Shown piece after piece: positions 2,116-41,769 of a DNA stretch of 64,000 nucleotides. Where the stretch lies: NCBI RefSeq assembly GCF_007990245.1, contig NZ_BJWG01000008.1, positions 62,001 through 126,000 on the forward strand, in the 5' to 3' direction. Each line of letters starts with the position of its first letter. The stretch's first letter is position 1. The stretch comes from Cellulomonas composti. Its GTDB lineage: Bacteria > Actinomycetota > Actinomycetes > Actinomycetales > Cellulomonadaceae. Made by a program: the position numbers and the translations under genes. The notes beneath the pieces were generated by a model that was not told where the DNA came from, did no database searches, and saw nothing but the letters and a program-made list of their open reading frames with translations.

Positions 2116-3252
2116 TCACCCCTGTGGACGCAGCGCGACGGCCATCGCCTCGACGGCGAGCAGCGGTGCGACGTTGCCCTCGAGCCGGGTGCGGGCCTGT
2201 CCGACCGCGTCCATCCGGCGCAGCGTCTGCTCGGGCGTCGAACGAGCAGCGAGCGCGCGCACCGTCTCCTCGTGCGCCGCGTTGACCAGCGCGACGTCGG
2301 CGCCGAGCTGGACCACCAGCACGTCGCGGTACAGCGAGAGCAGGTCGACCATCGCGCGGTCCAGCACGTCGCGCTGGGCCCGTGTCGCGCGGCGCTTCTG
2401 GTCCTCCTCGAGCTGGCGCACCTGGGTGCGCAGGGCGGGGGGGATCGTCGCACCCGCGTCCGCACCCATCGCGCGCAGCAGCGCCGCGCGCTCGGTCGCG
2501 TCGCGCTCCTCGGTGGCCGCCTTCGCGTCGGCCTGCGCGGTCGCGACGAGCTCGCCCGCCGCGAGCACGGCGTCGCCGACCCCGCGGATCCCCGCGGCGA
2601 GCTCGAGCACGCGCGAGCGCCGGGCGCGCGCCTCCGGGTCCCGCGCGAGGCGCCGCGCGATGCCGACGTGGCTCTGCGCCGCACGCGCCGCGACCTGCGC
2701 GTCGTCCGGGTCGATGCCGTCCCGTTCGACGAGCAGCCGCACCACCGCATCGACCGGCGGGACGCGCAGCGCGACCGCCCGTGAGCGCGAGCGCAGCGTG
2801 ACCAGGACGTCCTGCGGGCTCGGGGCGCACAGCATCCACACGGTGCGCGGTGCGGGTTCCTCGAGCGCCTTGAGCAGCACGTTCGAGGTCTTCTCGACGA
2901 GCCGGTCCGCGTCCTCGACGAGGATCACGCGCCAGCGCCCCTGCGACGGCGAACGCTGCGCGAGCTCTACGAGCGGACGCACCGCGTCGATGAGGATGTT
3001 GACGCCCTCGGTCGCGACGACCGTCACGTCGGGGTGCGTCCCGCGCAGCGTCGTCGTGCAGTCGTGGCACTCGCCGCAGCCGCCGTGCACGCACTGCAGC
3101 GCCGCCGCGAACGCACGCGCGAGGTTGGAGCGCCCCGACCCCGGCGGACCGGTGAACAGCCACGCGTGCGTCATCGCCGACGGGTCCGTGACCGCGCGTT
3201 GCAGCTCCGCGACCGCAGGCTCCTGCCCGACGAGCTCGTCCCACACGCTCAC
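2116..3252 (-). CDS. holB: DNA polymerase III subunit delta prime
   Basis: A 378-residue clamp-loader subunit. The N-terminal AAA+ domain begins WDELVGQEPAV. The P-loop reads GPPGSGRS with Arg in place of the usual Lys, typical of the non-hydrolysing delta prime subunit. A four-cysteine zinc module (C-HGG-CGEC-HDC) follows at about residue 60, then SRC-like motif positions and a helical C-terminal collar domain. It would act with delta and gamma/tau to load the sliding clamp. The GTG start overlaps the tmk stop by 4 bp (GTGA), so tmk and holB form one translational unit, with the S33 peptidase gene following. Confidence 0.93.
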   Translation of the reverse strand: MSVWDELVGQEPAVAELQRAVTDPSAMTHAWLFTGPPGSGRSNLARAFAAALQCVHGGCGECHDCTTTLRGTHPDVTVVATEGVNILIDAVRPLVELAQRSPSQGRWRVILVEDADRLVEKTSNVLLKALEEPAPRTVWMLCAPSPQDVLVTLRSRSRAVALRVPPVDAVVRLLVERDGIDPDDAQVAARAAQSHVGIARRLARDPEARARRSRVLELAAGIRGVGDAVLAAGELVATAQADAKAATEERDATERAALLRAMGADAGATIPPALRTQVRQLEEDQKRRATRAQRDVLDRAMVDLLSLYRDVLVVQLGADVALVNAAHEETVRALAARSTPEQTLRRMDAVGQARTRLEGNVAPLLAVEAMAVALRPQG

Positions 3253-38815: not shown

Positions 38816-40339
38816 ATGGCTGACCCGAAGTACGTCCTTGCCATCGACCAGGGCACGACCAGCACGCGCGCGATCGTCTTCGACCACGGCGGCCAGCTCG
38901 TGGCCACCGGTCAGAAGGAGCACGAGCAGATCTTCCCGAGAGCCGGTTGGGTGGAGCACGACCCGGCAGAGATCTGGGACAACACGCGTGAGGTCGTCGG
39001 TCTCGCGCTCGCCAAGGCCAACGCGACCGCCAAGGACCTGGCCTCGATCGGCATCACCAACCAGCGTGAGACGGCGGTGGTGTGGGACCGCAGGACCGGC
39101 AAGGCGGTCTACAACGCGATCGTCTGGCAGGACACCCGCACGCAGAAGATCGCCGAGGATCTCGGTGCTCTCGGCGGCGGTGCCGACCGGTACAAGGCCA
39201 AGGTCGGCCTCCCGCTGGCCACGTACTTCTCCGGTCCGAAGATCCGCTGGATCCTCGACAACGTCGACGGCGCACGCGAGGCTGCCGAGCGCGGCGACCT
39301 CGCGTTCGGCAACACCGACTCGTGGGTGCTGTGGAACATGACGGGCGGCGTCGACGGCGGTGTGCACGTCACCGACGTGACCAACGCGTCCCGCACGATG
39401 CTCATGAACCTCGACACGCTGTCCTGGAACGAGGACATCGCGGGCGAGATGGGCATCCCGCTGTCGATGCTCCCCGAGATCCGCTCGTCGTCCGAGGTGT
39501 ACGGCAACGACCGCGAGGGCGGCCTGGCCGCCGGCGTCCCGATCGCGGGCATCCTCGGTGACCAGCAGGCCGCGACGTTCGGCCAGGCATGCTTCGAGCC
39601 GGGCCACGCCAAGAACACGTACGGCACGGGCAACTTCATGCTGCTCAACACGGGCACGGAGATCGTCCCGTCCAAGAACGGCCTGCTGACGACGCTCTGC
39701 TACAAGATCGGCGACCAGGACGCGGTCTACGCGCTCGAGGGTTCGATCGCCGTCACCGGATCCCTGATCCAGTGGCTGCGCGACAACCTCGGCATGATCA
39801 CCTCGGCGCCGGAGATCGAGACGCTGGCCCGGACCGTCGACGACAACGGCGGCGCGTACTTCGTGCCGGCGTTCTCGGGCCTGTTCGCGCCGTACTGGCG
39901 CTCCGACGCACGCGGTGCGCTCGTCGGGCTCACCCGGTACGTCAACAAGGGTCACATCGCGCGGGCCGCCCTGGAGGCCACGGCCTTCCAGACCCGCGAG
40001 GTGCTCGACGCGATGAACGCCGACTCGGGCGTCGACCTGACCGAGCTCAAGGTCGACGGCGGCATGGTGCAGGACGAGCTGCTCATGCAGTTCCAGGCCG
40101 ACATCCTCGGCGTGGACGTCGTCCGGCCGAAGGTCGCCGAGACCACCGCGCTCGGCGCCGCGTACGCGGCCGGCATCGCGGTGGGCTTCTGGCAGGGCGA
40201 GCAGGACGTCATCGACAACTGGGCCGAGGACAAGCGCTGGAGCCCCGACATCGCCGACGACGAGCGCGACCGCCAGTACCGCCTCTGGAAGAAGGCCGTC
40301 ACCAAGACCTTCGACTGGGTCGACGACGACGTGAAGTAG
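38816..40339 (+). CDS. glpK: Glycerol kinase
   Basis: A 507-residue FGGY-family kinase. The ATP-binding start [16 protein letters not shown], the glycerol-contacting NQRET segment, and the FGGY signature region [14 protein letters not shown] with [14 protein letters not shown] are all present. It completes the glycerol pathway to glycerol-3-phosphate, the substrate of GlpD. The ATG follows GGAGAG. A terminator begins 17 bp after its stop. Confidence 0.97.
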
Positions 40340-40355
40340 CACCACGCACCACGCG

Positions 40356-40397
40356 ACGGGGGTGGGAGGTGGCCGACCGGCCGCCCCCCACCCCCGT
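40356..40397 (+). terminator. Terminator of the glycerol operon
   Basis: ACGGGGGTGGG (40356-40366) pairs with CCCACCCCCGT (40387-40397), with an inner GGCC/GGCC pairing. Confidence 0.7.
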
Positions 40398-40447
40398 CCC
40401 GCACCCACCCCCCCTCGATGCGACCCGCTCCCTCGATGCGGCCCGCT

Positions 40448-40844
40448 CCCTCGATGCAGCAGTCGATGCAGATCCCGGCGGGTCCACCCGGCGAACCCTG
40501 CACCCATCCCTGCACCCACCAACGCGACCCTCACCGGCAGACGCTCGCCGACCCCCACCCCGGGCGCTCACCCACCCGACCCCACCCCACCCCGCCCGCG
40601 CCCCTTCCCGGCCCTCGATGCAGCAGTCGATGCAGATCCCGGCGGGTCCACCCGGCGAACCCTGCACCCATCCCTGCACCCATCCCGACACCCACCAACG
40701 CGGCCCCACCAGGCGCATGCCCGCCCCCTCCACGCCCGCGCGACCTCTCCTCCCCGCCCACGCCCCTGCCCGGCCCTCGATGCAGCAGTCGATGCAGATC
40801 CCGGCGGGTCCACCCGGCGAACCCTGCACCCATCCCTGCACCCA
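40448..40844. repeat. Three identical 71-bp repeats with variable spacers
   Basis: A 71-bp core starting CCCTCGATGCAGCAGTCGAT and ending CCTGCACCCA is perfectly conserved at 40448-40518, 40612-40682 and 40774-40844. Spacers of 93 and 91 bp are C-rich and diverged. The first copy is preceded by two partial units (CCCTCGATGCG at about 40413 and 40431), and an inverted fragment CGGGATCTGCA lies at 40892-40902. The core contains two TCGATGCAG boxes and two CTGCACCCA boxes. Offsets of 164 and 162 bp break the reading frame between copies, and no ribosome binding site precedes the open frames, so it is not coding. This fills most of the 635-bp gap between glpK and xthA. Confidence 0.9.
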
Positions 40845-40962
40845 CCCCGACACCCATCAGCGCGACCCCACCGCGCATGCCCGTCACCCGGCGGGATCTG
40901 CATTGATCCGTGCAGCCATCACGGTGGGGCCGCTCTGGCGCAGTCGTGGGGGTGGTGGGCAG

Positions 40963-40968
40963 TAGGGT
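40963..40968 (+). promoter_or_regulatory. -10 element of xthA (leaderless)
   Basis: TAGGGT, 6 bases before the GTG start. Confidence 0.6.
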
Positions 40969-40974
40969 CGTCGG

Positions 40975-41769
40975 GTGCTCGTCGCGACGTGGAACATCAA
41001 CTCGATCCGGGCACGCGTGGACCGCGCGACGGCGTTCCTGGAGCGCACGGGTGTCGACGTCCTCGCGCTGCAGGAGACCAAGTGCAAGGACGAGCAGTTC
41101 CCGGCGGCGGCGTTCGAGTCGCTCGGGTACGAGGTCGCGCACGTCGGGCACTCGCAGTGGAACGGGGTCGCGATCGTCTCGCGCGTGGGGATCGCGGACG
41201 TCGAGGTCGGCTTCCCGGACATGCCGACGTGGGGTGACCCGCCGGCGGCGGAGGCCCGTGCGATCGGTGCGACGTGCGGCGGCGTCCGGGTGTGGAGCCT
41301 GTACATCCCGAACGGCCGGGAGATCGGCGACCCGCACTTCACGTACAAGCTCGACTGGCTCGCCCGGCTCCGGGACGCGGCCTCGGGCTGGCTCGCGGCC
41401 GATCCCGCGGCGCAGGTCGCGCTCGTCGGGGACTGGAACGTCGCGCCGCTCGACTCCGACGTGTGGGACCCGGCGTTCTTCGCCGGCCGGACGCACGTCA
41501 CGCCCGCGGAGCGCGAGGCCTTCGCGGGGATCGCGGAGGCCGGGTACACCGAGGTGTCCCGCGTGCACCTGCCCGCCGAGCACACGTACACCTACTGGGA
41601 CTACCAGCAGCTGCGCTTCCCCAAGAACATGGGCATGCGCATCGACCTGACGTACGCCTCGCCCGCTCTGGCGGAGCGCGTCACGGGCGTCACGATCGAG
41701 CGCAACGAGCGCAAGGGCAAGACCCCGTCCGACCACGTCCCGGTGGTGCTCGAGATCGAGGCACGATGA
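40975..41769 (+). CDS. xthA: Exodeoxyribonuclease III
   Basis: A 264-residue AP endonuclease/3'-exonuclease of the ExoIII family. The metal and catalytic motifs are in order: TWNINSIRAR, LQETK, SLYIPNG, VGDWNVAP and SDHVPV at the C terminus. It works with MutY-type glycosylases in base-excision repair. The start is fixed by the conserved N terminus and the upstream hexamer. The next gene's ATG overlaps its TGA by 4 bp. Confidence 0.95.
   Translation: MLVATWNINSIRARVDRATAFLERTGVDVLALQETKCKDEQFPAAAFESLGYEVAHVGHSQWNGVAIVSRVGIADVEVGFPDMPTWGDPPAAEARAIGATCGGVRVWSLYIPNGREIGDPHFTYKLDWLARLRDAASGWLAADPAAQVALVGDWNVAPLDSDVWDPAFFAGRTHVTPAEREAFAGIAEAGYTEVSRVHLPAEHTYTYWDYQQLRFPKNMGMRIDLTYASPALAERVTGVTIERNERKGKTPSDHVPVVLEIEAR

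Follow-up and report, generated by a model that had tools for sequence, protein, structure and literature searches.

A dispersed four-box palindrome of Cellulomonas composti with lineage-specific types, a candidate binding site for a chromosomal protein

The genome of Cellulomonas composti (3.54 Mb, assembled in 34 contigs) carries a family of palindromic elements, with 79 full elements at 28 places and one to eight per place. Each is a dyad of four short boxes, TGCAG-7-TGCAG-26-CTGCA-7-CTGCA. Multi-copy genomes of other species have their own type of box and centre, usually with one centre length, although the rule is not strict (C. uda has centres of 27 and 26 bp). Judging from the letters, we favour with moderate confidence the reading of the element as a symmetric double-stranded DNA site for a putative chromosomal protein, probably a dimer of dimers. 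An earlier note on a 64-kb stretch of this genome (the window, that is, the whole stretch analysed) had named a dispersed repeat family among its options, and the copies in the genome and in other species bear this out. The same note held that copies occurring only in the window and absent or scrambled in relatives would point to neutral local amplification; the copies are genome-wide and recur in other species.

In the window, the three identical 71-bp cores occupy positions 40448-40518, 40612-40682 and 40774-40844, with the offsets of 164 and 162 bp reported earlier. The array is intergenic, between two plus-strand open reading frames at 38816-40339 and 40975-41769, which we take to be the glycerol kinase gene glpK and an exodeoxyribonuclease III-like gene, both names being assigned from the translations. 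The boxes of copy 1 are at 40455-40459, 40467-40471, 40498-40502 and 40510-40514 around a centre at 40472-40497, and those of copies 2 and 3 lie inside 40619-40678 and 40781-40840 (the repeat features are given without strand). The doubled TCGATGCAG and doubled CTGCACCCA noticed earlier in the core correspond to the box pair of each arm, spaced by 12 bp. The accessory parts described are also present, namely two leading partial units at 40412-40447 (CCCTCGATGCG..., seen by eye), which have an 18-bp period and lack the second box, and an inverted fragment at 40885-40918, a decayed half element consisting of one arm and half a centre (CTGCATTGATCCGTGCA). With up to two mismatches, the 17-bp arm pattern matches 11 times in the window, nine of them inside the array, versus 0.42 expected. 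The spacers had been called diverged, which holds for copies 1 and 2, whose 40 flanking bases are 35% alike, but not for copies 2 and 3 (88% alike); the array spacers in the window are no more alike than shuffles (0.68 versus 0.68). Similarly, the remark that the reading frame is not kept applies to the offset of 164 bp but not to that of 162 bp, and the region is intergenic anyway. Directly 3' of glpK lies a separate 24-bp inverted repeat (40352-40401; 88% complementary, two bases between the arms), which is outside the element family. It is a possible hairpin in which no terminator-like T run was found, and is perhaps the true end signal of glpK.

Throughout the C. composti genome, the full dyad pattern with up to three mismatches gave 77 matches and its reversed control 0; the remaining two of the 79 full elements have four mismatches to the fixed pattern. 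Iterated nhmmer on fetched places together with a box scan yielded 74 full copies and a half element, and a CM search added five. The CM search gave at least 150 rows, so the fixed pattern provides the better copy count. Blastn of the window stretch against the same genome gave 70 matches, of which the one on contig C16 yielded no element. The 26-bp centre is exact in 79 of 79 full elements: with the gap left free over 24-28 for 75 copies it was 26 in 74, the remaining one being the half element, and with the gap free over 20-35 for the five later copies it was 26 in all five. Further, a MAFFT alignment of 60 of the 74 copies then known is gap-free. The box of this genome is TSRRTGCAG, two per half in tandem at 12-bp spacing. 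Among 158 arms it is matched (8 or 9 of 9 letters) in 91% at offset 0 and in 99% at offset 12, and a third box at offset -12 occurs in 4% versus 0.1% in the background. Beside some copies there are extra 12-bp box units (CTGCAYCCACCC repeated; L034 about 3100-3140, L018 about 3510), which are local expansions of the arm period.

Copies of one array are spaced at 112-250 bp. According to a rough gene caller the places in this genome are intergenic, with overlaps at L017 (low-scoring frames) and for one copy of L031; five elements at four further places were run through it as well, and overlaps were also seen at L080, L109 and L265. At seven of the 28 places a contig terminus is no more than about 300 bp away (start and end of C2, start of C5, ends of C12, C13, C19 and C21). 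The arrays thus probably interrupted the assembly, and the true copy number is probably higher.

Among relatives, the model R1 and the broader R2 each matched 9 of 81 genomes of the genus, C. composti included. Weak variants can be missed in these counts, because the searches used the stricter filters set for more than 40 genomes and scored 59 candidates per genome. In a named genome set, the exact pattern gave 14 stretches in C. gelida, C. uda, C. persica, a MAG labelled Kineosporiaceae and an Actinomycetales MAG; two MAGs outside the family of Cellulomonas carry the element. Across 396 genomes of the order, the exact pattern matched three, C. composti included, a count that is too low because known bearers in the set (G002, G068, G024 and G103) were missed. 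In the family of MAG G136, one of these outside families, R2 matched four of four genomes, G136 among them, with one weak place each in G028 and G120. In a glpK tree covering 70 of the 81 genomes, the nine bearers are clustered, needing 5 changes versus a shuffled mean of 8.6 and 0 of 500 shuffles as low.

Searches of other material were mostly negative. When 0.4 Mb of the non-bearer G020 was scanned de novo for any four-box dyad, there were 9 hits at no more than one mismatch versus 7 in the control, none with TGCA boxes. A TGCA-anchored scan found none; its positive control gave 44 hits in C. composti loci, 7 in G002 loci and 0 in G068 loci, the scan being blind to the G068 type. R1 matched the place C1:594 of G068, which the box scan did not. 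When the 551-bp stretch was compared with 38 relatives by Blastn, seven had matches (best E 2.3e-8) whose listed query ranges are wholly or nearly in the spacers, and these were not counted. By eye, the glpK-xth gap of G024 holds no element, and one 76-bp copy had no match in plasmids and phages. A link to viruses was rejected for the seven viral stretches that had a 39-bp gap. Those with readable neighbouring frames (best in L120 and L124) are coding repeats, presumably of tail-fibre-like proteins, and all seven were taken as false. Tandem coding repeats on the viral contigs L118-L124 (AAISAAATDATTKANAAQ-like where read) mimic the four-box pattern, and the single-arm pattern matched 65 viral stretches.

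The types differ from lineage to lineage. The half-site consensus is TGCAGnSATGGRTGCAG with the centre half RWCYSGSCGGGT in C. composti, ...ATGAATGCAG in C. gelida, ...ATGGTTGCAG with CGYGCCC in G002, ...ATCGTYGCAG in G068 and ...ATGGGTGCAG in MAG G136; the three G103 elements read have the common centre GGGGTGATCACCCC, a palindrome of even length. Centre lengths were tallied for the 61 relative elements kept, which are those fetched and not all per genome. The centre is 27 bp in C. gelida (10/10), C. persica (7/7), G002 (16/16), G060 (5/5), G068 (7/7) and G096 (3/3), 28 bp in G136 (7/7), 26 bp in G057 (3/3) and 24 bp in the single G024 copy, and of the two C. uda elements read one has 27 and one 26.

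Elements stand beside the same end of orthologous genes in at least two species at ten positions, a lower bound since only element-bearing loci of other species were fetched and absences were uncounted. One is the gap upstream of NAD synthase in C. composti, C. gelida and G002; the next gap is another, where C. gelida and G002 have an element next to glutamine synthetase, and C. composti and C. gelida have one by the same end of the middle gene. C. composti further shares C6:151 kb with C. gelida (L290) and, by one flank, C12:25 kb with G002 (L263), so that 4 of its 28 places are among the ten. The others are C. gelida L096 with C. persica L102; C. gelida L288 with C. uda L108 and G057 L107 with C. 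uda L291, each by one flank; C. persica L284 with G002 L265; G060 L274 with G068 L281; and C. gelida L100 with MAG G136 L080, by one flank, where the other neighbour, citrate synthase, is orthologous and lies one gene further in C. gelida. A tRNA-Ser (tga) is found on the same side of the element in L096 (2651-2743) and L102 (3854-3946). C. composti L094 versus G060 L274 and G068 L281 was dropped as a shared position, the helicases being only about 30% identical.

Within genomes, elements at different loci are 0.76 alike in C. composti (2957 pairs), 0.77 in G002 (118), 0.82 in G136 (19) and 0.82 in G096 (3). The values for G060 (0.67, 9 pairs) and G068 (0.68, 21 pairs) are slightly above the cross value of 0.65, and C. 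gelida (0.70, 44 pairs) and C. persica (0.68, 21 pairs) are not separated from each other (0.69 between); three score-18 rows are left out of these counts. At the same place, close species are alike (C. gelida-C. uda 0.97, G057-C. uda 0.81, G060-G068 0.76), and C. gelida-C. persica does not stand out (0.71 versus 0.69). For distant species, ten same-place pairs are 0.55-0.66 alike, like random cross-genome pairs (0.56-0.64); the dropped comparison of L094 with L274 and L281 is still listed in this analysis. Elements at orthologous positions of distant species thus resemble each other only as much as random cross-genome pairs do, whereas copies within a genome mostly resemble each other more, and the type changes in concert.

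Homogenisation also acts on a local scale. The 22 variable core columns are 0.806 alike in array neighbours and flanking columns 0.565; between arrays the values are 0.471 and 0.350. The core is more alike than the flanks in 46 of 51 neighbour pairs and less in five, which suggests that neighbouring copies are homogenised within the element; the flanks were compared ungapped, lowering their value, and even the variable core columns are not completely unconstrained. About 7 of the 12 arrays of at least three copies have spacers that clearly resemble one another more than shuffles do, and many arrays therefore arose by tandem duplication. The earlier suggestion that the cores are under selection or homogenised thus fits in both parts, as boxes and spacing recur across species and the variable core positions of neighbours are more alike than their flanks.

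A hairpin RNA would predict co-varying arm positions. In 60 of the 79 copies (C. composti only), the arms pair in 74.3% of cells versus 76.4% in shuffles, with 500 of 500 shuffles at or above the observed value, and the covariation score is 0.106 versus 0.128 shuffled (499 of 500 as high). Most column pairs are near or below expectation, with the exception of outer pair position -3 (columns 6-71 of A1), which is C-G in 17 and G-C in 16 of the 60 copies and pairs 39 times versus 30.5 expected in 74 copies. With pairing below shuffles, the element is read as a double-stranded protein-binding dyad and not as a small RNA; all in all, the two arms give the impression of separate copies of a single recognition sequence. 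A structured RNA or an intrinsic terminator at each copy is accordingly very improbable, even though the consensus forms a long palindrome, co-variation is seen in one outer pair and the minus-strand fold of copy 3, at -41.1 kcal/mol, is moderately better than shuffles (z -2.17). The plus-strand z is only -1.38, a terminator scan of window positions 40300-41000 found none, and 10 of 60 elements of relatives lie in divergent gaps. Rfam gave five matches on 40000-41400, all below gathering scores. The repeated small RNA of the earlier note is therefore disfavoured, as is a cruciform by covariation, and its protein-binding array is the reading we favour.

Under the favoured reading of a protein site, each half would consist of two tandem boxes spaced by 12 bp and a lineage-specific half of the central palindrome, and one cognate protein would read all elements of a genome. 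Even-length central palindromes such as GGGGTGATCACCCC would be easier to reconcile with a protein dimer than with an RNA loop. The concerted change of type could come about if sites co-evolve with the protein, convert from one another, or both. In C. composti, single elements would have grown into arrays of up to eight, through local tandem duplication at least in part, the element itself staying more similar between copies than its flanks. The role might be chromosome organisation, recombination or regulation. A structural or recombination role seems the likelier one to us, as the elements are found in gaps of all three orientations: of the 60 gaps of relatives in which the rough gene caller called both neighbours, 19 are convergent, 31 tandem and 10 divergent, a count that may include as many as three rows discarded afterwards. 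Patchy presence (9 of 81 genomes) is odd for an essential organiser. Co-evolution with a protein, conversion and re-insertion at preferred places are all candidates for keeping the sites of a genome in step. It is hard to imagine centre length changing site by site at many loci, and the main force may therefore be copying or conversion.

An alternative is a selfish population resembling REPINs, in which a non-autonomous dispersed element is mobilised in trans by a non-RAYT enzyme and the lineage type is the type that the enzyme recognises. REPINs, which come with RAYT transposases, consist of two REP sequences in inverted orientation around a variable centre; a genome has tens of them, as singlets and in clusters, and its own sequence type. 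They are the closest known analogue that we can name. The element likewise has inverted, intergenic half-sites, a less conserved centre, tens of copies, one type per genome and singlets as well as clusters, and arrays of up to eight were found only in C. composti among the genomes read, others being mostly single. However, the defining RAYT is absent: PF01797 (Y1, RAYT) occurs in 1 of the 81 genus genomes, the non-bearer G004, and in none of the nine bearers, and RAYT is rejected as mobiliser. The half-site also differs in being a 12-bp tandem double box, positions common to distant species carry each lineage's own type, and no target duplication of the kind expected for a MITE or transposon end was seen by eye at the copies of the one C. 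composti strain covered. We consider this explanation unlikely. Slightly less likely still is a recombination or nuclease hot spot, where an enzyme would cut or nick the central palindrome and repair from another copy would lead to gene conversion and concerted change. The neighbour likeness concentrated in the element (46 of 51 pairs), the three identical cores of the window beside one strongly diverged spacer, and the concerted type at shared positions agree with it, but the enzyme is purely hypothetical here, gene conversion would have to work with very short homology, the islands being 60 bp long and their flanks unrelated, and core constraint may account for part of the neighbour likeness. 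Neutral local amplification without function would fit the spacer likeness of about 7 of 12 arrays, which resembles tandem duplication, and may still explain array formation; as a full account of the element it is very unlikely, since the same dyad geometry recurs in other species and at the same places.

Other known systems share single features. BIME/REP and ERIC sequences are dispersed intergenic palindromes too, pictured as hairpins with conserved stems, whereas arm pairing in the element is below shuffles. Nucleoid proteins such as SlmA, Noc and MatP each have tens of palindromic sites, which are short (about 12-16 bp); the element also numbers tens but is 60 bp or more, occurs in 9 of 81 genus genomes and is spread broadly over the chromosome. 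Integron attC sites have four inverted boxes and a variable centre, like the element, but their motifs are RYYYAAC/GTTRRRY, while its boxes are, by inspection, direct TGCAG repeats, and its array spacing of 112-250 bp is too close for ordinary gene cassettes. A literature search short of full texts found nothing resembling the four-box element. Tentatively, and with more doubt than for the protein site itself, the family might represent an actinobacterial system of chromosome organisation or recombination not described before, with one protein (a dimer of dimers) holding tens of dyads of 60 bp, some of which keep conserved places. Drift in its specificity would shift all sites of a genome in step, including their centre length, at positions that predate the species. 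In the elements one can read a natural record of what is apparently a change of DNA-binding specificity across many sites simultaneously, some of them at conserved positions. In cultured Cellulomonas species, the concerted evolution of such dispersed sites becomes directly testable, and the element is a ready bait for the candidate chromosomal protein.

The genomic neighbourhood gives no convincing recurrent gene for a candidate binding protein. The 50 immediate or near neighbour proteins scanned are mostly metabolic, with a few regulators and helicases and some without family. The largest cluster is ABC-ATPase-like (10 proteins), followed by aminotransferase-like (4) and MFS-like (4) clusters, all large paralogous families. 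When 19 of 26 typed C. composti pieces and glpK were placed on G057, the loci were distributed broadly along the chromosome but left the region of 1.75-2.74 Mb empty, around the antipode of dnaA (about 2.61 Mb). Their mean distance from dnaA is 762 kb versus 958 kb expected (calculated by hand), which is not significant, and the weak positional bias may reflect which genes are conserved.
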